Below are positions 28,676 to 40,297 of a DNA stretch of 54,819 nt, in pieces (within the stretch, counting starts at the first letter, position 1; every line of letters begins with the position of its first letter). A program made the translations under genes and the position numbers. The notes beneath the pieces were generated by a model. That model was given only the letters and a program-made list of their open reading frames with translations, was not told where the DNA came from and did not search any database. This DNA comes from Moraxellaceae bacterium (lineage in GTDB: Bacteria; Pseudomonadota; Gammaproteobacteria; Burkholderiales; Rhodocyclaceae): contig JAVHYF010000002.1 of NCBI GenBank assembly GCA_031119205.1, positions 179,755 to 234,573 of the forward strand, written 5' to 3'.

Positions 28676-28679
<4 letters not shown>
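27672..28679 (-). CDS. Gfo/Idh/MocA family oxidoreductase
   Basis: NAD(P)-dependent dehydrogenase-like protein of 335 residues. The N-terminal Rossmann start is KVCIIGGSGHYQYVLDGL, an atypical glycine pattern, and is followed by IVVNTWFGACAAISMECLRRGHHVYAEKPLATTLDDLHAL with the EKP motif of the family. The C-terminal half has the substrate domain with GGTIPWVGAHAVDWVRWF. Substrate unknown. The ATG at 28679 overlaps the EVE gene stop by four bases (ATGA); its end overlaps the TSUP start. The pairing of an EVE protein, a dehydrogenase and a permease downstream of 6S RNA looks like a conserved neighbourhood, but I cannot verify this. Confidence 0.85.
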
Positions 28680-29143
<464 letters not shown>

Positions 29144-29192
29144 GGGCGTTTCCTCGCTTGGTCTGGAAGAACTTCAGGAGAAACCTCTTGAG

Positions 29193-29288
29193 ACGCGACC
29201 ACAAGGGTTCTGGCTAGGCGCGCCGACGAAGACAGTACGACCGGTACGGCAAGGAGGCGCAACAACGCCAGAACCCTTGTGGTCGCGT
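29193..29288. repeat. Long inverted repeat (hairpin element A)
   Basis: A perfect 22-bp inverted repeat (29193-29214 and 29267-29288) encloses 52 nt. Inside are GCGCC/GGCGC (29220-29224 with 29256-29260) and a central GTAC-N5-GTAC hairpin (29235-29247). The arm ends carry TTCTGGC/GCCAGAA. There is no T-run after either arm and no short flanking direct repeat. It lies between the 6S RNA terminator and the EVE gene. It shares its plan with element B at 37121-37246, so it is probably a dispersed repeat, though the copy number in the genome is unknown. Confidence 0.75.
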
Positions 29289-29293
29289 ATCCA

Positions 29294-29329
29294 AAAACAA
29301 AGGGCGCGAAGCCTGTCGCTCCGCGCCCT
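29294..29329 (-). terminator. Rho-independent terminator after 6S RNA
   Basis: On the minus strand the stem AGGGCGCG/CGCGCCCT (29322-29329 with 29301-29308) is followed by TTTGTTTTT. It starts about 10 bp beyond the predicted 3' end of 6S RNA and would end the zapB-zapA-6S primary transcript. Confidence 0.85.
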
Positions 29330-29335
29330 GTATGG

Positions 29336-29518
29336 GGATCCCCCGCCTGTGCCGTGTGTGCCGTCATCCTGAACCGGTGGTTCAGGGGGTCGCGACCGGC
29401 CCGCCTCAGGTGCGCCCGGCAAAGGGGCGCTCACAACAGCGGGTTGTTCGGCCAGCAACCATGTCGCGTAGACATTGGTTCAAGGAGTATGTGGCCCACA
29501 CGAACACCGCAGGGGAAA
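29336..29518 (-). ncRNA. ssrS: 6S RNA
   Basis: Structured RNA of about 183 nt, the length of E. coli 6S (184). The ends form the closing stem: CCCCUGCGGUG...GGCC at 29493-29515 pairs with GGCACACACGGCACAGGCGGGG at 29341-29361. The 3' half has a CCUGAACC...GGUUCAGG hairpin (about 29367-29385) followed by GAUGACGGC, equivalent to the E. coli CCUUGAACC/GGUUCAAGG. The gene lies downstream of zapA, the canonical place of ssrS. It binds sigma-70 RNA polymerase in stationary phase and acts as a template for pRNA. Ends are placed by the stem and are good to a few bases. Confidence 0.88.
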
Positions 29519-29653
29519 ACTGTTGGTCCCGCCATCAAACTGCGCGACCGTTGAAATCACTTGGTTGCAACAACTTAATTGCAATTATCGACTCGGCTAT
29601 CGCGGTATGAATGCCGGAAAGCTCTCATTACCGTGTAGTCGATCACTGCTTGC

Positions 29654-29950
29654 TCAGAACAACTTTTCCTGCTTGGCCAGCGCTTCGTCGATGCGCTCGG
29701 CCATGGAAGAAATTCTACGCCTGCTGCCAGCGAGATCAACCCCGCCGCCGGCCCGACTTTGTATGAATTCGTGAGCGATGTTGAGAGCGGTCATCACTGC
29801 CAGCAATTCCCCGCCGCTGGTCGTCTTGCCGGCGAGCTGCTGCATCTTTTCGTCTACGAGGGCGACGGCCGCCTGCAGGCTCTCGCGCTCCTCAGGCTTC
29901 ACATTGACGCTGTACTCGCGCCCCATCAGGTGGATGTCCAGGCGCTCCAT
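29654..29950 (-). CDS. zapA: Cell division protein ZapA
   Basis: FtsZ-binding protein of 98 residues that stabilises the Z ring. The N-terminal domain carries LDIHLMGREYSVNVKPEERESLQAAVALVDEKMQQLAGKT, the family pattern, and a coiled-coil C-terminus SRAGGGVDLAGSRRRISSMAERIDEALAKQEKLF follows. The ATG at 29950 overlaps the zapB stop by one base (TGATG); a GTG at 29953 would add one Met. It is followed by the 6S RNA gene, a neighbourhood known from other Proteobacteria. Confidence 0.93.
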   Translation of the reverse strand: MERLDIHLMGREYSVNVKPEERESLQAAVALVDEKMQQLAGKTTSGGELLAVMTALNIAHEFIQSRAGGGVDLAGSRRRISSMAERIDEALAKQEKLF

Positions 29951-30153
29951 CACGCGTCCTCCGATTCGGGCAGGCTGGCCAGCACCTCTTCCACCTTGCG
30001 GATGGCGTGCTGGACCTTGTCCGCCAGCTGGCGATTCTCGGCTTCCAGCGCGGCAATGCGTTCGAGCAGCACGCGCTTGTCGGCACGCAGCTGGCCATGT
30101 TCCTCGATCAGCGTCGCGACGCGCGCTTCGAGTTGCGAGAGTTCGGCATCCAT
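29950..30153 (-). CDS. zapB: Cell division protein ZapB-like (coiled coil)
   Basis: Coiled-coil protein of 67 residues. Heptad repeats run over nearly the whole length (LSQLEARVATLIEEHGQLRADKRVLLERIAALEAENRQLADKVQ). The family here is the short ZapB/DUF904 type that lies upstream of zapA in Betaproteobacteria. It probably works with ZapA on the Z ring. Start ATG is the only clear one, and the stop overlaps zapA. It lies 57 bp after the btuF stop, so it may be read from its own promoter. Confidence 0.8.
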   Translation of the reverse strand: MDAELSQLEARVATLIEEHGQLRADKRVLLERIAALEAENRQLADKVQHAIRKVEEVLASLPESEDA

Positions 30154-30210
30154 GACGGGGATGCTACGGCGCCAGCATGGCGAGGGTCAAGAATGGCGCC
30201 GGACGACCGA

Positions 30211-31140
30211 TCAACGTGCCGCCCGCACGGCATCCAGCGCCGTACATACGGCATCGGCCGCATCCAGGATACGCGGGCCATGGCGGGCGATGAGGTCACC
30301 CGGGATGGTCCACATCTGGCCGTTCTTCACGGCCTGCATGCCGGTGTAGCGCTGCCAGTGCGCAAGACTCTGCGCCTGTGGGTCGCGCAGGGGCGCCAGA
30401 TCGGCATCGTCGCGGCTGCGATGGGCAGCAAGGATGACCTCGGGGTTGGCCGCGACCACACTTTCGGTGGAGAGTCGCGGGACCAGCATCGGCTGGTCGG
30501 CAAACACGTTCTCGCCACCGCACAGGGCCATGACATCGGAGATCAGGTGAGTGCCATTGATGGTCATCAGCGGCTGCGACCAGATCTGGTAGAAGGTCCG
30601 TACTTTCGGCACACCGGCGTGGCGTGCGCGCTGGCTCGCCAGACGCGTGCGATAGCGCGTCGCGGCGCCAGTAGCCACCGCCTCGGTGCCAAAGAGCCGC
30701 CCCAGCCGCTCGAATACCGCAGGCAGGTCGTCGAGGTGCTTGGGCTCCAGGTAGAACATCGGGATTCCCATGGCACGCAGCCGTTCGATCTCTCGCTGAC
30801 CATTGCCGTGGTACCACACGAAGATCATGTCGGGCTTCAGCGTGGCGATTCGTTCGAGGTCCAGCTTCTGGTTGCTGCCGACGCGTGGCAAGTTGCGCGC
30901 AGCCGCCGGGTAGTCGCTGTACTCCACCACGCCCAGCAGTCGCTCGCCGCCGCCGGCGGCGAAGATCAGTTCGGTAAGGCTGGGGGCCAGCGCGATCGCC
31001 CGCTGCACGGGCCGCGCCAGCGTGTGCTCGCGACCGGCATCGTCACGCACCACGAATGCCTGCGCCTGGCCTTGCACGGGGAACACCACGGCCAACGCCA
31101 GCAACCACGGCGTCAACATCTTCACTACGAATCTGTTCAT
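30211..31140 (-). CDS. btuF: Cobalamin-binding periplasmic protein BtuF
   Basis: Substrate-binding protein of a vitamin B12 ABC importer. The 309-residue product has a signal peptide (to about residue 28, AQA). The PerBP-type domain follows: RPVQRAIALAPSLTELIFAAGGGERLLGVVEYSDYPAAARNLPRVGS, the central linker helix, and IWSQPLMTINGTHLISDVMALCGGENVFAD, both typical of BtuF/FecB. It is last in the riboswitch-controlled operon, 38 bp after btuD, and is followed by zapB. Confidence 0.9.
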   Translation of the reverse strand: MNRFVVKMLTPWLLALAVVFPVQGQAQAFVVRDDAGREHTLARPVQRAIALAPSLTELIFAAGGGERLLGVVEYSDYPAAARNLPRVGSNQKLDLERIATLKPDMIFVWYHGNGQREIERLRAMGIPMFYLEPKHLDDLPAVFERLGRLFGTEAVATGAATRYRTRLASQRARHAGVPKVRTFYQIWSQPLMTINGTHLISDVMALCGGENVFADQPMLVPRLSTESVVAANPEVILAAHRSRDDADLAPLRDPQAQSLAHWQRYTGMQAVKNGQMWTIPGDLIARHGPRILDAADAVCTALDAVRAAR

Positions 31141-31178
31141 TGCATTCTCATTGCAGTCTCATTGCACTCATCACCGAT

Positions 31179-31994
31179 TCAATCCCTGCGCGCCGACAGG
31201 TCCACCCGGAACCAGCGCGCGTCACCCTCTTCCAGCACACTGACCGGTACCGCATAAGCATGCGACAAGGGGGCGGCCTGCAAGACCTCCTCGCGCGTGC
31301 CGGCTACGAAGCCGCCCTGCCCGTCCAGCAACAGGGCGTGCGTCGCGAAGTTCCATGCCATGTTGAGGTCATGCACGGCCGCAAACACGGTGCCGCCGGC
31401 AGCCGACCATGCGCTTAGCAAGGGCTGCAACAGTACCTGGTGAGCCCAGTCCAGGTGTGCGGTGGGTTCGTCCAGCAACAGCAAGGGCGCGCCCTGTGCG
31501 CAGGCTGTGGCCAGGGCCACGCGCTGGCGCTCACCACCGGACAGGGTGCGCACGTCGTTGTCGGCCAGCGCACCGACGTCGAAGCCTTTCAGCCAGTCAC
31601 GTGCCAGCAGTTCGGCCTGCGCAGCACTCAGGTCCGGCTGCGTCGCCACCACCGCACACGCCACGGTCTCCCAGCCACTGGCCGGGAAAGGGTCCAGCCA
31701 GAACTGCGGACACCAGGCGCGCTGGCGCGCCAGCTCGCGCGCCGGCCATTGTGACAACGCGCGTTCGCCGAGCCGGATCTCGCCGGCCGCGGTGGTCGAC
31801 AACCCCGCCACCGCTGACAGCAGCGTGGACTTGCCGGCGCCATTCGGACCCAGCAGCGCCCAGCGCTGGCCCGGCTCGATGGACAGCGACAGCGCGGACA
31901 CGAGCTGGCGCCCTGCATTGCCGGCGCGCAGCGCCACATCGCGCAGATGCAGCGGCACGGGTGACGCGTTCAGGCGGATGGGGGCAGCGCTCAT
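31179..31994 (-). CDS. btuD: Cobalamin ABC transporter ATP-binding protein BtuD
   Basis: ATPase of the B12 importer, 271 residues. Walker A GPNGAGKST is near residue 41, the Q-loop is in RAWCPQFWLDPFPASGW, the signature is LSGGERQRV, and Walker B is LLLLDEPTAHLD, followed by the His switch in FAAVHDLNM. The start at 31994 overlaps the btuC stop by four bases (ATGA). The FecE/BtuD class is inferred from pairing with BtuC and BtuF; substrate assignment to B12 rests on the cobalamin operon and its riboswitch. Confidence 0.92.
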   Translation of the reverse strand: MSAAPIRLNASPVPLHLRDVALRAGNAGRQLVSALSLSIEPGQRWALLGPNGAGKSTLLSAVAGLSTTAAGEIRLGERALSQWPARELARQRAWCPQFWLDPFPASGWETVACAVVATQPDLSAAQAELLARDWLKGFDVGALADNDVRTLSGGERQRVALATACAQGAPLLLLDEPTAHLDWAHQVLLQPLLSAWSAAGGTVFAAVHDLNMAWNFATHALLLDGQGGFVAGTREEVLQAAPLSHAYAVPVSVLEEGDARWFRVDLSARRD

Positions 31995-32977
31995 CGGGCC
32001 TGGCTCCGTCGCAGCAACAGGAACAGGAAAAGCGGCACGCCAACCGCGGCCGACACCACGCCTACCGGCAACTGCGCCGGGGCGATCAGCGTGCGCGCCA
32101 CGGTATCCGCCAGCACCAGGAAGACGCCGCCGAACACTACCGAGAACGGCAGCAAGGCGCGCGCATGGCGCAGGCCGACCAGGCGCACGATGTGCGGCGC
32201 GACCAGGCCCACGAAGCCGATGCTGCCAGCGGTGGCCACCGCGGCACCGGTCGCGATGCAGGCTGCGAGAATCGCCAGGCGGCGGCGTTTCGCCACCGGC
32301 ACACCCAGCGTCCACGCCCAGGCATCGCCACGGGTCAGCCAGTCCAGCTCGCGCGCACGCGGCCAGGCGAGCAGCAGGGCGATGCCGACCGCTGCCCACA
32401 ACGGCCACCACAGCGATGCGCCGTTGAGATCTCCCAGCAACCAGAACACCAGGCTGCGCAATTGCTGGTCATTGGCGATCGCCAGCATGAAGGACACCGC
32501 CGCGCCGCACGCCGCGCCGATCATCACACCCACCAGCAACACCACCACCGTGCCGGGCTGGTTGCCGATGCGACCATCGCCGCTCTTGCCCATCGCGCGC
32601 CAGGTGAACAGGAAGGCGAGGCTGGTTGCCGCCAGCGCCCCCAGCACCGCGCCGAGTTCCGGCGCCAGGAACAGTCCGGCAGGCAGCAGCATGAGCGCCA
32701 GCAAGGCGCCCACCGACGCGCCGCTGCTCACGCCCAGCACATAGGGATCAGCCAGTGGATTCCGGGTGACGAGTTGTATCAAGGCACCAGCAAGTGCCAG
32801 CCCGGCACCGGTGCCGAAGGCGGACAGCACGCGCGGCAGGCGGATCAGCCACAGGATGTCGCCCTGCGGCCAACCCCAGCCGGACGAGCCCGCCATCAGC
32901 CCGATGAAGAGCGCCGCCGGCACACACACGCCGGCGAGCAGCAGCGCGGCAGCAAGCGGTGGTGGCTTGAGTATCAT
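31991..32977 (-). CDS. btuC: Cobalamin ABC transporter permease BtuC
   Basis: FecCD-family permease of 328 residues with about ten membrane helices. Family motifs seen are RLPRVLSAFGTGAGLALAGALIQLVTRNPLADPYVLGVSSGASVGA near residue 45, LRSLVFWLLGDLNGASL, and the late AGSIGFVGLVAPHIVRLVGLRHARALLP that contains the coupling helix for BtuD. The ATG at 32977 overlaps the upstream HAD gene stop by four bases. Start ends at [16 protein letters not shown], which is the first membrane helix. Confidence 0.93.
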   Translation of the reverse strand: MILKPPPLAAALLLAGVCVPAALFIGLMAGSSGWGWPQGDILWLIRLPRVLSAFGTGAGLALAGALIQLVTRNPLADPYVLGVSSGASVGALLALMLLPAGLFLAPELGAVLGALAATSLAFLFTWRAMGKSGDGRIGNQPGTVVVLLVGVMIGAACGAAVSFMLAIANDQQLRSLVFWLLGDLNGASLWWPLWAAVGIALLLAWPRARELDWLTRGDAWAWTLGVPVAKRRRLAILAACIATGAAVATAGSIGFVGLVAPHIVRLVGLRHARALLPFSVVFGGVFLVLADTVARTLIAPAQLPVGVVSAAVGVPLFLFLLLRRSQAR

Positions 32978-33639
32978 GCGGCCCCCACCACGCCGGGCAC
33001 TTCGGCCAGCGCGAGAACGCGGGCGTGATAGTCGGCTTCGATGTCGTCCGGCCACGGCAGGTGGCGCTGCAGCCAGATCGCGCGCATGCCCGCAGCCGTA
33101 GCGCCCTGCACGTCCGCGCGCGGATCGTCGCCGACGAACCACGCCTGATCCGGCGCGACGCCGAGTTGATCGAGGACATGCCTGAAGACGCGCGCATCCG
33201 GCTTGTCCACGCCGAGCTCGCCGGAGATCGTCACTGCATCGACCAGACCAGCCAGCGCGCTGTTGTCGATCTTGGCGCGCTGCGTGCGCGACTGGCCGTT
33301 GCTCACGATACCGATGGCGTAACCACGTCGCCGGAGTTCGCCCAGTACCGGCACCGCATCGTCGAACAACGGCGGAGCTATCCAGGCCGTGGCGATGAAA
33401 GCCTCGGCGGCCTCGGCCGCATTGGCGTGCGGCAGGCATTCTGCGCACAGTCGCTCGAAGAACACCGGGCGCTTCACGCGGCCATTGCCGTCCAGTTCCA
33501 TGAAGCGCGCCACGAACACGGCAGCATCTGCCACGCTCGTCTGGCCGCTTGCCCACAGCTGCTGCGCATAGCGCTGCAGGCCGGCACGTCGGTCCACCAG
33601 GGTTTCGTCCAGATCGAAGATCACGGCCTGCCGGCTCAT
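32974..33639 (-). CDS. HAD superfamily hydrolase in the cobalamin operon
   Basis: Phosphatase-like protein of 221 residues. The nucleophile motif is [10 protein letters not shown] (first Asp at about residue 9), motif II is the Ser/Thr after IGIVSNGQ, and motif IV is [19 protein letters not shown]. The cap is the small helical type (C1). It lies between cbiP and btuC with four-base overlaps at both ends, so it is translated with them. The substrate is not known. An obvious role would be dephosphorylation of a cobamide precursor, but a CobC-like alpha-ribazole phosphatase is already encoded nearby, so this stays open. Confidence 0.85.
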
Positions 33640-35117
33640 GCAGCCCCCTGCTCCGCGTGCAGTATCCGCATCAGCGCGGCGGTATCCATGTGCGCGGCCA
33701 CGGTATCTGCGAGGCGTTCGATACTGGCTTCGCGCAATGCGGCCAGATCCGGCGCCCGCGGTGCCACCAGGCCAGCCCATGCCAGCAAGGCGTCACAGGC
33801 TGCCGGTTCGTCGAAGAGGCCATGTACGTAGCTGCCCAGCACCTGGCCGCCGGAGTCGATCGCACCATCGGCCACGGTCTCGCCATCCTGCGCGAGCCGA
33901 CTGGCGGGTCGCGCCAGCGCAGGGCCATCGCTCACGCCGGCATGGATCTCGTAGCCGCGCACCGGAGCATCCTGCAGGCACAGGCGCCCGCTCACGCTGC
34001 GCAACTGTTTCTGCGGCTGCAGCACGGTACGCATGTCCAGCCAGCCGAGGCCATCGCTGGCACCGGCCTCGCCTTCCAGCCCGTGCGGATCATCGATGCC
34101 CTGGCCCAGCATCTGGAAGCCGCCGCAGATGCCGATGAGTTTTCCGCCGTAACGCAGGTGCCGGGCGATGGCCGCATCCCAGCCCTGCGCGCGCAGCCAG
34201 GCGAGGTCTGCGCGCACGGATTTCGAGCCGGGCAGGATGATCAGGTCCGCGGGCGGGATCGCTTCGTCGGGACCGATGAAGCGGAAGTCGAGCTGCGGAT
34301 GAATGCGCAGCACGTCGAAATCCGTGTGGTTGGAGATGCGCGGCGTCACCGGCACGATCACCCGCAGACGGGGGGCGTCGGTCTGCGCGGCAGGCACCAA
34401 ATCGCGCGCGATCGCATCTTCGGCTTCCAGCTGCAGGCCATGCAGGTAGGGCAGCACGCCGAGCACGGGTTTTCCGGTGCGCGCTTCCAGCCAGTCGAGC
34501 CCGGATTGCAACAGCGCGATGTCGCCACGGAAGCGGTTGATGACGAAACCTTTCACGCGCGCCTGCTCGCTCTCCGACAACAGGGCCAGCGTGCCGACGA
34601 GGTGGGCGAACACGCCACCACGGTCGATATCCGCCACGAGAATCACCGGGCAGTCCACCGCCTCGGCGAAGCCCATGTTGGCGATGTCATTCGCACGCAG
34701 GTTGATTTCGGCCGGCGAACCGGCGCCCTCGACGATCACGCAGGCATGGCGGGCACGCAAACGCGCGAAGGACTCCAGCACGGCCGAACGCGCCGTCTGC
34801 TTGTAGGCGTGATAGTCCAGTGCGTTCATGTTGCCGATGGCATGGCCCTGGATGATGACCTGCGCACCGACGTCGGTATTCGGCTTCAGCAACACCGGGT
34901 TCATGTCGGTGTGCGCGGGAATGCGGCAAGCGGCCGCCTGCGCGGCCTGGGCGCGACCGATCTCGCCGCCATCCTCCGTCACGGCCGCATTCAGCGCCAT
35001 GTTTTGCGGCTTGAAGGGCGCCACATCCACGCCCTGACGCACCAGCCAGCGGCAGATCGCCGCCACCAGCGTGCTCTTGCCGGCGTCCGAGGTGCAGCCC
35101 TGCACCATCAGCATCAT
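33636..35117 (-). CDS. cbiP: Cobyric acid synthase CbiP/CobQ
   Basis: Glutamine-dependent enzyme that amidates adenosylcobyrinate a,c-diamide at four positions to cobyric acid. The 493 residues match the family (about 485-510). The N-terminal dethiobiotin-synthetase-like domain has the P-loop [13 protein letters not shown] and [10 protein letters not shown]. The C-terminal type I glutamine amidotransferase domain carries the nucleophile Cys in [11 protein letters not shown] and the His of GSYVHGLFD. The start at 35117 opens on [11 protein letters not shown] and overlaps the cobD stop by four bases; the longer upstream frame is not protein-like. Confidence 0.95.
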
Positions 35118-36130
35118 GGCTGCCACCCTTGCAGGACGGCAGCCAGCTTGTCCCAGCCGGCTTCGTCCGGCGGCAGGCCGATGCGAACACCGGTATGCGG
35201 CAGCTCCGGGAAATGCCGCACGAGTATCGCGTGCTGTGCGCAATGGGCGTGGAATTCACGCGCCCGGCTCGATGGCAACCAGCGGAACAGCGCGCAGCCA
35301 CTCGGCGATGCCAGTCCGTTTGCAACCAGCAGATCAGCCAGTCGGGCGCTGTCGCGCTGCAGGCGCTCGCGCGTGGCGGCCTGCCAGGCGACATCGGCCA
35401 GGGCACGCTGTGCGATCCAGCGCGCCGGATGGCTGAGCGCCCACGGCCCGATCTCCTCACCCAGCGCCGTGATGATGGTCTGTGGCCCCAGCACGAAGCC
35501 GCAGCGCACGCCCGCCAGGCCCCAGAACTTGCCGAGCGAACGCAACAACACCAGCCCCGGTCGGCCAGCATCGGCAAGCAGGCTGTGCCCGGGCGTGGCG
35601 TCGATGAAAGCCTCGTCGACGATCAGGCAGCCGCCACGTGCCGCCAGCGTCTCGCGCCAGGCCTCGAGCTGTACGCGGGGCCTCAGGGAACCGGTAGGGT
35701 TGTCGGGATTCACGACCAGCAGCACATCCAGCACCGGCAGGTGGCGGTCGACATCTTCGAAGGCAATCTCACGCACGACGTGGCCGGCGCGCTGCCAGGC
35801 CCGTGCATGCTCCGCATAGGTCGGCGACACGATGCCGATGCGGCTGGTGGCCCACAGGCGCGGCAGGCTCTGGATGGCCGCTTGTGAACCGGGCACCGGC
35901 AGGATGGGTGCCGTGCCGAAATACGATGTCATGGCCATGACGAGGCCGTCCTCGTCCTCGGGCAGGCGCTGCCACACGGCAGCCGGCAGCTCCGGTACCG
36001 GCCAGCCCTGCGGGTTGATACCGGTGGACAGGTCCAGCCAGTGCTGCAACGGGATGCGCCAGTGGTGCGCGGCGGCGCGCAGGCGCCCGCCATGGGGCAC
36101 GGCACGCCGGGGCTGGGGTATGTCAGCCAT
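35114..36130 (-). CDS. cobD: L-threonine-O-3-phosphate decarboxylase CobD-like (PLP)
   Basis: PLP-dependent enzyme that makes (R)-1-amino-2-propanol phosphate, the linker of the nucleotide loop. The 338 residues resemble the fold I aminotransferase family (CobD or the shorter CobC of aerobes). Seen: [20 protein letters not shown], the [13 protein letters not shown] helix, [19 protein letters not shown] with the PLP-binding Asp, and [20 protein letters not shown] with the Schiff-base Lys. The start at 36130 overlaps the cbiB stop by eight bases. The choice between the Salmonella-type name cobD and the Pseudomonas-type name cobC is one of nomenclature. Confidence 0.92.
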
Positions 36131-37040
36131 GCAGGCGGCCCACCAGCCACAGCAGCGCGGCCAGCACTGCACACCACAGCCACGCGGTGCGCCGCACCAG
36201 CAACACCGCACGCCAGATGTCACCCGCCATGGGGGTCACGCCGATGCCGAACACCGGCCGTTCCTCGAGCTGTCCATGGTAGATCGCTGCGCCACCGATG
36301 CGCAGACCGAGCGCACCGGCGCCCGCTGCCATCACCGGACCGGCGTTCGGGCTGTCATGCGCCGGCGCCTGGGTACGCCAGCAGTTGATCGCCTCGGTGA
36401 AGCGCCCGAGCAGCGCGTAGCTCACCGCCGTGAGGCGCGCCGGCAGGTAGTTGAGGACATCGTCGATGCGCGCCGCCGCCCAGCCGAAATACAGGAAGCG
36501 CGGCGTGCGGTAGCCCCACATGGCATCCAGCGTGTTGGCCAGGCGGAACAGCACTGCCCCCGGTCCGCCCAGCAGCGCGAACCAGAACAAGGTACCGAAC
36601 ACCGCATCGTTGCCGTTCTCGAGCACCGACTCGATAGTGGCTGCTGCCACGCCGGATTCGTCGAGCGTGGCCGTATCGCGGCTGACCATGCGCGACAAGG
36701 CATCGCGCGCGGCGACCAGATCTCCCGCCGCCAGCGGCTGCATCACCGCCCGGGCGTGCTCCGACAAGCTGCGCCCACCGAGTGCCAGGAACAGCAACAC
36801 CGCATCCAGCCACCAGGCTGTGTGCAGGCACAGCCACATGCTGAGCGCGACAACCGGCAACACGACCAGCACCCAGGCCAGCACGCCGCCACCACGCTGC
36901 ACGGCCGGGGTGGCACCATCGACATTCAGCTTCGCCTCCATCATCGCCGCCCAGCGCCCGAAGCCCACTAGCGGATGCCAGCGCTTCGGCTCGCCGAGCA
37001 GGACGTCGAGGAGATAACCGAGGATCAGGGCGAAGCTCAT
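36123..37040 (-). CDS. cbiB: Adenosylcobinamide-phosphate synthase CbiB (membrane)
   Basis: Inner-membrane enzyme that joins the aminopropanol (phosphate) to adenosylcobyric acid. The 305 residues match the family. Motifs: the opening LILGYLLDVLLGEPKRWHPLVGFGRW (the GEP-HP motif), DTATLDESGVAAATIESVLENGNDAVFGTLFWF, and DAMWGYRTPRFLYFGWAAARIDDVLNYLPARLTA. Four to five membrane helices are visible. Also named cobD in Pseudomonas nomenclature. Its start lies 208 bp after the cobO stop, an unusual gap in this otherwise overlapping operon; this gap contains repeat element B. Confidence 0.93.
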   Translation of the reverse strand: MSFALILGYLLDVLLGEPKRWHPLVGFGRWAAMMEAKLNVDGATPAVQRGGGVLAWVLVVLPVVALSMWLCLHTAWWLDAVLLFLALGGRSLSEHARAVMQPLAAGDLVAARDALSRMVSRDTATLDESGVAAATIESVLENGNDAVFGTLFWFALLGGPGAVLFRLANTLDAMWGYRTPRFLYFGWAAARIDDVLNYLPARLTAVSYALLGRFTEAINCWRTQAPAHDSPNAGPVMAAGAGALGLRIGGAAIYHGQLEERPVFGIGVTPMAGDIWRAVLLVRRTAWLWCAVLAALLWLVGRLHG

Positions 37041-37120
37041 GCGCTGGTGCGAAAGAAAGTCACTGGATTCCTGCGTTCACTGAAGACAAACAACAGATTT
37101 CCAACAGCATCACATCGAGC

Positions 37121-37246
37121 GGTTTCTGGCGGAGGAAGCGCAGCGAGCGCGTCGAGGTCGCGACGAGGCGCGGAGCTGTACGAGAAGTACAGCGAGCACC
37201 GGAATCGCGAGATCGACGCGCGCAGTAGCTTCATCCGCCAGAAACC
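37121..37246. repeat. Long inverted repeat (hairpin element B)
   Basis: A 126-bp imperfect palindrome. Outer arms of 13 bp are perfect (37121-37133 with 37234-37246) and extend by five more pairs after one mismatch. Inside, GCGCGTCGA/TCGACGCGC and TCGCGA/TCGCGA pair again, and the centre is CTGTAC-N5-GTACAG. It has the same plan as element A: TTCTGGC/GCCAGAA at the arms and a GTAC hairpin with a 5-nt loop. It lies between cobO (its stop codon is two bases away) and cbiB. Short open frames through it look like chance translation. Confidence 0.78.
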
Positions 37247-37248
37247 CC

Positions 37249-37875
37249 TCACCATTCGATGCCGGGCATTGCTTTGACGCCTGCGTGGAAAGCATGCTTC
37301 TCCAGCCGCATCTCCGTCACCGTGTCCGCAACCGCCACCAGGCCGTCCGGCGCCGCGCGGCCGGTGATGATGACGTGCTGCATGACGGGGCGCGCCTGCA
37401 CGGCAGCCAGCACTTCATCCAGCGTCACCCAGCCGAACTTCAGTGCGTAGGTGAATTCGTCCAGGATCAGCAGGTCGACCTCGTCGTCGGCCAGGTAGGC
37501 CTTTACCTGCTCCCAGGCTGCACGCGCGGTTTTCAGGTCCTTCTCCGCGTCCTGCGTCTCCCAGGTGAAGCCGTCCCCCATGACGTGCCACTTCACGTCG
37601 GAGTGCTTCGTGAAGAAGGCCTCTTCACCGGTGTCGGTACGGCTCTTGATGAACTGCACGACGGCGCAGCGCATGCCGTGGCCGAGTGCGCGGGCCAGCA
37701 CGCCGAAGGCGGCGCTGCTCTTGCCCTTGCCGGTACCGGTGTTCACCAGCAGCAGGCCGCGCTCGATCTCGGCACGCTCGATGGCAGCGTCGACCACTTC
37801 CTTCTTGCGCTGCATGCGCTGGCGGTAGCGGGCGTCCTTGCCGTTGTCAGATGGGTTATCCGTTGTCATCGTCAT
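37249..37875 (-). CDS. cobO: Cob(I)alamin adenosyltransferase CobO/BtuR
   Basis: ATP:corrinoid adenosyltransferase of 208 residues. The P-loop is VNTGTGKGKSSAAFG near residue 44, and family motifs VVQFIKSRTDTGEE, LLILDEFTYALKFGW and VIITGRAAPDGLVAVADTVTEMRLEKHAF are present. It adenosylates cobyrinate diamide or imported corrinoid. The N-terminal extension with two candidate Met (37875 and 37869) leaves the exact start open. It follows btuB by 52 bp and is followed by element B and then cbiB. Confidence 0.95.
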   Translation of the reverse strand: MTMTTDNPSDNGKDARYRQRMQRKKEVVDAAIERAEIERGLLLVNTGTGKGKSSAAFGVLARALGHGMRCAVVQFIKSRTDTGEEAFFTKHSDVKWHVMGDGFTWETQDAEKDLKTARAAWEQVKAYLADDEVDLLILDEFTYALKFGWVTLDEVLAAVQARPVMQHVIITGRAAPDGLVAVADTVTEMRLEKHAFHAGVKAMPGIEW

Positions 37876-39778: not shown

Positions 39779-39917
39779 GAGAGAGGACTTCCCGTCAGCC
39801 TCCGCAGCGTCCCCGCAGCGGAAGCGGTTTCTAATACCAGTCGGGAGGTATGGACGGAACGGTCGCCGGCAGGACGGGATCGTCCGGCCGCACACCCCGC
39901 AGCCTGATCACTTGTGT

Positions 39918-40185
39918 CCCGGGCCGGTATCCGGGCTCACGAGTCGATGCGGCATGCAGACATGCCAGCACCAGCCGACCACCGCCTTCCCGAAGCAATG
40001 CTTCAGTGGCATCGAGCGCAGTGCGGTCGCGGCACCCGATGGGGTGTCGCAGACATTGCGCCGGGGTCGGCCCTCGCTTACCGTTGCGGGGGCAGCACAG
40101 GCTTTGCGGCGTCCGGACAGCCCGGACCATACGCGCACCTGTTTCCCGTTTAACCCTGACTGTCATCAACAGGCAGGGCACCTGG
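39918..40185 (-). promoter_or_regulatory. Cobalamin riboswitch upstream of btuB
   Basis: Read on the minus strand, the conserved parts come in the right order: GGTGCC at 40177-40182, GTTAAACGGGAAAC at 40141-40154, CTGTGCTGCCCCCGCAACGGTAA around 40075-40100, GCCACTG (about 40006-40012), GGGAAGG (about 39987-39993), and the B12 box GAGCCCGGATACCGGCC at 39922-39938. After it, 140 bp lead to btuB, with a hairpin (about 39795-39825) near the ribosome-binding region, so translational control is plausible. No terminator run is seen. It should turn down btuB and the uptake and salvage genes when adenosylcobalamin is high. Confidence 0.95.
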
Positions 40186-40297
40186 AACGCGCTTCGGCAA
40201 GAGTGTCGGAACTGAATCTTGACCTTGCCGGAGCGGGCTGCGATGGTATCACGCCCTCTTCCCTGCCCCACCGTGGCACCGACCTCCCGGAAGCTTC

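Follow-up and report, generated by a model that had tools for sequence, protein, structure and literature searches.

Two long hairpins, here called element A and element B, lie in the 54,819-nucleotide (nt) stretch of contig JAVHYF010000002.1 (assembly GCA_031119205.1, a genome of the Rhodocyclaceae) that was analysed as a whole and is referred to as the window, and sequence comparison showed element A to be a relative, with a homologous core, of the Correia elements of the gonococcus and the meningococcus. The explanation we favour, with a probability of about 70%, is that such elements are Correia-type miniature transposons with a structured core, which are moved by IS5-type transposases and kept as hairpins in the mRNA behind stop codons.

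The relation to the neisserial elements was established with a covariance model, R1, of the 66-nt conserved core, which in element A spans 29208..29273 (+ strand in the orientation of the model; match G000:C77:208962-209027, E 3.6e-19). R1 was built without loci of the genus Neisseria and yet gave 70 matches at E≤0.01 in the N. gonorrhoeae record NZ_CP119142.1, which places element A in a family that includes the neisserial Correia/NEMIS elements. The gonococcal records NZ_CP119140.1 and NZ_CP119142.1 are about 2.17 Mb long and thus chromosome-sized, and are filed as plasmids in PLSDB. Sixteen further R1 matches were found in the C. metallidurans megaplasmid. The copies in a small genome, G115, carry the arm TATAGTGGATTAAATTTAAA, and one of them, L180, matches two gonococcal chromosome records at 98-100% in at least 40 places each and carries the core end TCAGGACAA and the arm AAATTTAAA described for the Correia repeat enclosed elements (CREE). 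An excerpt of PMC2649163 gives for CREE the core end TCAGGACAA and the arms AACAAAAA or AAATTTAAA, and this description fits the copies. The length criterion for CREE is 104-108 or 153-157 bp, and 28 of the best-scoring 30 of the 70 gonococcal matches had lengths of 104-107. The 26-bp Correia repeat beginning TATAGTGGATTAA was seen, among the copies inspected, in those of G115 and the gonococcus; it is not the terminal repeat of element A, where the left, terminal-repeat-like outer arm is GAGACGCGACCACAAGGG (29190..29207, +) and the right outer arm is CCCTTGTGGTCGCGTATC (29274..29291, +), both delimited from the inverted-repeat list and the comparison of copies. As these arms are unlike the Correia repeat, element A is a relative in a wider family and not a CREE in the strict sense. 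No Correia-type elements outside Neisseria were described among the matches listed for titles and abstracts of openly licensed PMC papers.

An earlier note, made from the letters of this DNA alone, had proposed both hairpins as dispersed, non-autonomous elements with compensating differences in their stems, and they were found essentially where it had placed them. Element A occupies 29190..29291 (− strand; inverted-repeat list and folding), a length of 102 nt, with 25-nt arms of 96% complementarity at 29190-29214 and 29267-29291. Element B occupies 37117..37250 (− strand; same basis), with 23-nt arms of 91% complementarity at 37117-37139 and 37228-37250. The two were the top entries among the inverted repeats within 200 nt in the scan of the window. 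Folding gave z-scores of −10.3 for element A on the + strand (29193-29288), −8.9 for its − strand, which was taken as the mRNA sense because it is the strand of the preceding 6S RNA gene, and −9.8 for element B; 0 of 200 shuffles folded as stably as either element, so that the hairpins are real.

The element is also abundant. The full pattern of element A had 7 exact matches in its own genome and 0 in the reversed control, its core with at most 3 mismatches had 20 matches and 0 in the control, and R1 detected 30 copies at E≤0.001. Matches to R1 occurred in 51 of 121 sampled genomes, the own genome included. A scan of contigs that demanded exact core bases returned at least 80 stretches, many of them from few genomes and most of them betaproteobacterial by title; the exceptions were one Pseudomonas and four stretches from three metagenome-assembled genomes named only Proteobacteria or Pseudomonadota. 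The families of the genera recovered are Chromobacteriaceae/Neisseriaceae, Rhodocyclaceae, Methylophilaceae, Comamonadaceae, Burkholderiaceae and Oxalobacteraceae. The A core was present in 10 viral contigs and the B core in 0, and phage records gave no match for two A-family queries. Of the two outcomes that the earlier note had named as refuting its proposal, namely that only these two copies exist and that the stems do not covary, neither was obtained.

Covariation was measured in two alignments. A1, selected by pattern, comprised 73 of the 96 references listed, thinned of near-duplicates and with six matches lacking a TAGGCGC-like word skipped; its invariance at the scanned core bases is by construction, because the scan demanded exact bases there. 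A5 consisted of model matches in 77 chosen loci, gonococcal rows included, and was fitted to the structure. Double-changed cells numbered 212 versus 49 after shuffling in A1 and 209 versus 53 in A5, an alignment that leans to the model, and the A5 covariation score was 0.41 versus at most 0.10 for slid partners. The core has two stems with covariation, two internal loops that are asymmetric and for the most part conserved, and a GTAC-N5-GTAC tip that is almost invariant; most loop positions of the family are nearly invariant as well. Internal loop 1 in element A has TAGGC on its left side (29215..29219, +; A5 columns) and AACAAC on its right (29261-29266); in A5, AGGC was conserved at 88-100%, the first AAC at 98-100% and the second half of the AACAAC side at 60-85%. 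The apical module (29228..29252, +; alignments) is made up of the loop GAAGACA, the hairpin GTAC-GACCG-GTAC and the loop GGCAA.

The outer arms vary strongly by copy and by genome and yet pair mutually, the median arm duplex energy over 100 copies being −29.7 kcal/mol versus −16.9 kcal/mol when the two arms come from different loci. The left outer arm of element A differs from the arm common in its own genome, where other copies reach about 120 nt. In two C. metallidurans copies (L318 and L319) the left half is replaced by the same unrelated GC-rich repeat. The strongest sign of a function residing in the core itself is that its internal loops stay conserved whichever terminal repeats surround them.

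Many A copies outside Neisseria carry a 3-bp TWA target duplication. Identical 3-nt flanks were found in 33 of the 86 copies with recognisable ends, where shuffling gave a mean of 11.2 and a maximum of 21 in 2000 trials, and flank pairs that were both TTA or TAA agreed in 33 of 33 cases (17 TTA/TTA, 16 TAA/TAA and 0 mixed). A matching insertion sequence (IS) was found in Neisseriaceae bacterium JH1-16, in which two 864-bp IS5-family copies in opposite orientations (L239 555-1418 and L240 557-1420) are bounded by GAGCCGCTAACAAAAC, identical to the terminal 16 bp of the A elements of that genome. The frames of L239, the one copy scanned, match DUF4096, DDE_Tnp_1 and NCBIfam transpos_IS5_3, the transposase being spread over two overlapping frames. 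Members of this IS group duplicate TNA. We infer that an IS5-family transposase is the most likely mover of the A elements. The ends of the JH1-16 IS are without the A core when its first and last 120 bases are compared; the A element did not arise from this IS by mere internal deletion. Of the features expected of an IS5-derived miniature inverted-repeat transposable element (MITE), the family has terminal inverted repeats (TIRs) and a target duplication, and an autonomous element with the same ends was found in one species only, JH1-16.

The position of A-family copies outside Neisseria behind stop codons, in one orientation, is new. In the own genome, with genes called by codon use, the right-hand gene end facing the element lay at most 10 nt from the estimated boundary in 21 of 30 copies. 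Stop codons were also counted for open frames of 100 codons or more that face the element, in copies flanked on either side by 420 nt or more, and in the 154 copies outside the gonococcal and G115 loci, viral-contig copies with unchecked hosts included, 85 had a facing stop codon 13-25 nt beyond the core. This bin held 88 stops, compared with 4-15 in the other right-hand bins and 6-20 in the left-hand bins, and the commonest distance was 17-19 nt past the core end. When boundaries were defined by the TIRs, the right-hand boundary touched a stop codon in 25 of 82 copies and the left-hand boundary in 7 of 82, with control means at 60 offsets of 0.52 and 0.48 (maxima 3 and 2), respectively. A right-hand stop adjoined 13 of 18 TTA-type insertions and a left-hand stop 3 of 17 TAA-type insertions (Fisher p 0.002). 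Of the 42 TWA sites in the window that lie between genes or form a stop codon, 5 are TAA stops; by that measure insertions at left-hand stops occur at a near-neutral rate, unlike those at right-hand stops. With the stop-codon position and the single orientation of more than half of the copies measured, the mRNA would carry a long hairpin right after the stop codon.

Certain gene ends recur. A copies lie at the end of groEL in three genomes (L056, L144 and L204), GroEL models matching in all three, and one copy behind groEL is orthologous in the own genome and its congener G002, the right flanks of the two agreeing at 86% across 1,373 nt. The copies L144 and L204 share the right flank, and a paired change distinguishes them in stem 2, as read from the sequences. 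The end of aspS recurs in L068 and L097, which were tested with a hidden Markov model (HMM), and nearly the same C-terminus precedes the copies in L076 and L091; these four are perhaps an old conserved position. The aspS-type copies (L068, L076, L091 and L097) come from Methylotenera-type genomes and have weaker outer arms.

Element A itself follows the terminator of an RNA gene in the orientation usual for the family. Upstream of it in the sense of transcription are the 6S RNA gene (RF00013; 29336..29518, −; Rfam, 59.3 bits) and a terminator-like hairpin with a T-run (29302..29328, −; read directly from the sequence), and on its other side is a gene for an EVE-domain protein (28676..29143, −; Pfam PF01878, E 3.4e-54). 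The empty sites that had been predicted for relatives were found in the congeners G002 and G006, which have 80 and 59 bp, respectively, between the aligned EVE and 6S parts and are without the element; five further congeners had no element match beside 6S, EVE not being matched there. Correia elements in Neisseria tend to lie near non-coding RNAs, according to an excerpt of PMC5039591. At gathering score the Rfam matches in the window are 6S RNA and a cobalamin riboswitch only and neither hairpin matches, while the best Rfam match over an element in six loci with A or B copies reached 27.6 bits, the cut-off being 54.

Element B starts at the stop codon of cobO, likewise in the usual orientation of its family. 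Its conserved core (37134..37232, + in the orientation of the covariance model R2; match G000:C77:216888-216986, E 1.1e-25) is one of the seven copies used for R2 out of eight aligned, and its apical hairpin, GCTGTAC-GAGAA-GTACAGC, was located from the alignment at 37175..37193 (+). The cobO/btuR gene (37249..37875, −; PF02572, E 2.6e-63), whose product ends in GIEW, has its stop codon at 37249-37251, abutting the element, and the cobD/cbiB gene (36123..37040, −; PF03186, E 6.2e-94) lies downstream in the same direction. The cobalamin riboswitch (39905-40200, −) is upstream of a TonB-dependent receptor gene, cobO and cobD, with element B between the last two. Of 399 genomes of the order, 65 gave R2 matches, the own genome being one of them with 10 copies or more; the per-genome counts are lower bounds, with at most 10 candidates scored in each. 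Stops at most 6 nt from the arm end numbered 16 on the right and 5 on the left in 33 B copies (binomial p 0.03), the expectation from farther offsets being about 1 right and 1.7 left. Tandem B arrays occur in G220 and G256, and the array at L268 1039-1380 (G220) holds three copies with a 125-bp period. Near-identical B copies, mostly with the ends GGGAACTTCTAAAAA/TTTTTAGAAGTTCCC, were seen in L252-L261 and L270 from three genomes of one family and are probably a recent amplification. Plasmid records gave no match for three B-family queries.

The two hairpins had been read in the earlier note as members of one family on the strength of TTCTGGC/GCCAGAA, GGCGC and GTAC-N5-GTAC, all of which are literally present in both. 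TTCTGGC lies in element A inside the AGCGNAGCG bulge typical of most own-genome copies and in element B outside the GCGNAGCGAGCG motif, in the arm that varies between copies, and this shared arm looks coincidental and not like a homologous part. The link that remains is in the apical part and in a weak similarity of the whole models. Of the 48 B loci, 18 were matched by R1 in the B orientation at E≤1 (16 distinct copies, best E 0.004), where about 1 would be expected by chance, and an own-genome copy, L148 1484-1582 (−), is intermediate, scoring with both models (R1 E 1.1e-4; R2 60 bits). These matches make A and B probable distant relatives, but they are two families rather than one.

In the favoured explanation, the 66-nt structured core is set between terminal inverted repeats that vary from lineage to lineage, and outside Neisseria many copies were inserted by a TWA-duplicating transposase, most likely an IS5-family enzyme. 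The matching IS would move the elements, and the hairpin in the mRNA would be what selection keeps. The most likely function would be processing or protection of mRNA 3′ ends, for instance by RNase III cutting of the arms, and the core loops may be recognised by RNA polymerase, by a ribonuclease or by an RNA-binding protein; this role is proposed from position and orientation. Element B belongs to another family, probably related, whose members likewise tend to follow stop codons. The idea of an mRNA-processing hairpin, already raised in the earlier note, is therefore a plausible one, given the post-stop position, the orientation bias and, by analogy, the RNase III cleavage known for the neisserial relatives.

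Several observations weigh against this explanation. Element A follows an RNA gene rather than a stop codon, and no target duplication is visible at its site, where the arms are unusual; 53 of the 86 copies with recognisable ends also have no 3-nt duplication. The flanking triplets of the two JH1-16 IS copies are not identical, and neither the own genome nor its seven congeners yielded an IS with matching ends. Among the neisserial-type copies, with the gonococcus represented by its best-scoring 30 of 70 matches, only 1 of 28 had a stop codon in the 13-25-nt bin. Right-hand and left-hand stops were counted at 0 and 1 of 5 copies in G098 and at 0 and 2 of 3 in C. metallidurans. The gene ends were taken from open frames and codon use without annotation, few being checked by HMM, and the bias in orientation might stem from the way in which the elements insert.

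On a rival view, the position at stop codons and the single orientation arise from target choice during transposition, for example by a target motif reaching into gene 3′ ends, with no selection on the RNA. The precise distance from stop to core, commonest at 17-19 nt, would suit such targeting, as would the nearly equal overall numbers of TTA- and TAA-type insertions (17 and 16), but the ends of groEL and aspS recur in different genomes, with one copy orthologous in two congeners, which suggests that retention contributes, and we regard targeting without selection as unlikely. A purely selfish Correia-type MITE without host function, whose habit at stops is only what purifying selection has left over, since a TAA stop can take an insertion without damage to the gene, is rather doubtful in our judgement. 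A TAA stop codon is indeed a TWA site, and the neisserial-type relatives are without stop preference. However, TAA stops are only 5 of the 42 available TWA sites in the window and yet TTA-type insertions were at right-hand stops in 13 of 18 cases versus 3 of 17 TAA-type insertions at left-hand stops; neutral loss should act equally on both orientations. The loops and stems of the core are, moreover, conserved in copies with different arms.

Two further ideas fared worse. Intrinsic terminators or attenuators evolved in place could explain long GC-rich hairpins at gene ends, but are very improbable in view of the target duplications, the absence of the element beside 6S RNA in congeners and the common core in unrelated places; they are disfavoured in particular because no T-run follows element A on the mRNA strand, as read directly from the sequence, nor was one seen by eye after copy L030. 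The mobilisation by a REP-associated tyrosine transposase (RAYT) that had been suggested in the earlier note, in which a Y1 enzyme would act on single-stranded hairpins as for repetitive extragenic palindromes (REPs), is likewise disfavoured. The hairpin form and the location outside genes agree with it, but the element length of about 100-130 nt, the long inverted repeats at the ends, the duplicated target triplet of many copies and a matching DDE-type IS5-family IS in one genome make it the least probable of the readings considered, no search for a RAYT gene having been made.

The favoured explanation can be extended to a conserved RNA module that changes vehicles, its core being joined to different IS5-type ends across the Betaproteobacteria, spread by transposases that fit these ends and retained behind stop codons as a transplantable mRNA 3′-end device. 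In that case the neisserial Correia elements would form a derived branch of different habit, and A and B two classes of one device. We hold this extension tentatively, at somewhat less than even odds. The spread of the core in the Betaproteobacteria, the TWA duplications and an IS with the same ends provide a concrete candidate for the mode of movement, and the orientation bias at stops makes the retention of a mobile element as an mRNA 3′-end element directly testable.

Compared with known systems, the JH1-16 IS of the transpos_IS5_3 type shares its terminal 16 bp with the A elements of that genome while its ends are without the core. The REPs of the REP/RAYT (TnpAREP) system are likewise dispersed extragenic palindromes, whereas A and B are longer, framed by terminal repeats and often target-duplicated. 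The ERIC/IRU elements, of about 127 nt, resemble them by description rather than by sequence comparison as long hairpins that also occur at gene 3′ ends. An excerpt of PMC3733652 assigns to REPs a GTAG or CGTC end tag, and one of PMC10969869 places ERIC at the 3′ ends of genes. Family B is similar to the published BRE in having about 90 nt between conserved ends, tandem arrays, an intergenic location and betaproteobacterial hosts, and is possibly identical with it, the two being likened by description. BRE is presented in an excerpt of Hot et al. 2011 (PMC3110155) as an approximately 90-bp beta-proteobacterial repeat, a BRE-bearing region of which gives a small RNA of about 70-80 nt.

The A family has a close likeness in CREE, with which it has in common core sequence and structure, a roughly similar length (near the 104-108 bp class), terminal inverted repeats, a reported target duplication and a long RNA hairpin. 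The target duplication of Correia elements is TA and that of the A family TWA, and there are about 30 copies in the own genome compared with more than 100 for CREE. According to excerpts of PMC2649163 and PMC10969869, RNase III cleaves transcripts of the neisserial elements, and the first of these sources reports that gonococcal CREE mostly lie on the 5′ side of genes (in one strain, 76 of 123). A-family copies are, in contrast to the neisserial-type copies tested (1 of 28), often found at stop codons and in one orientation.

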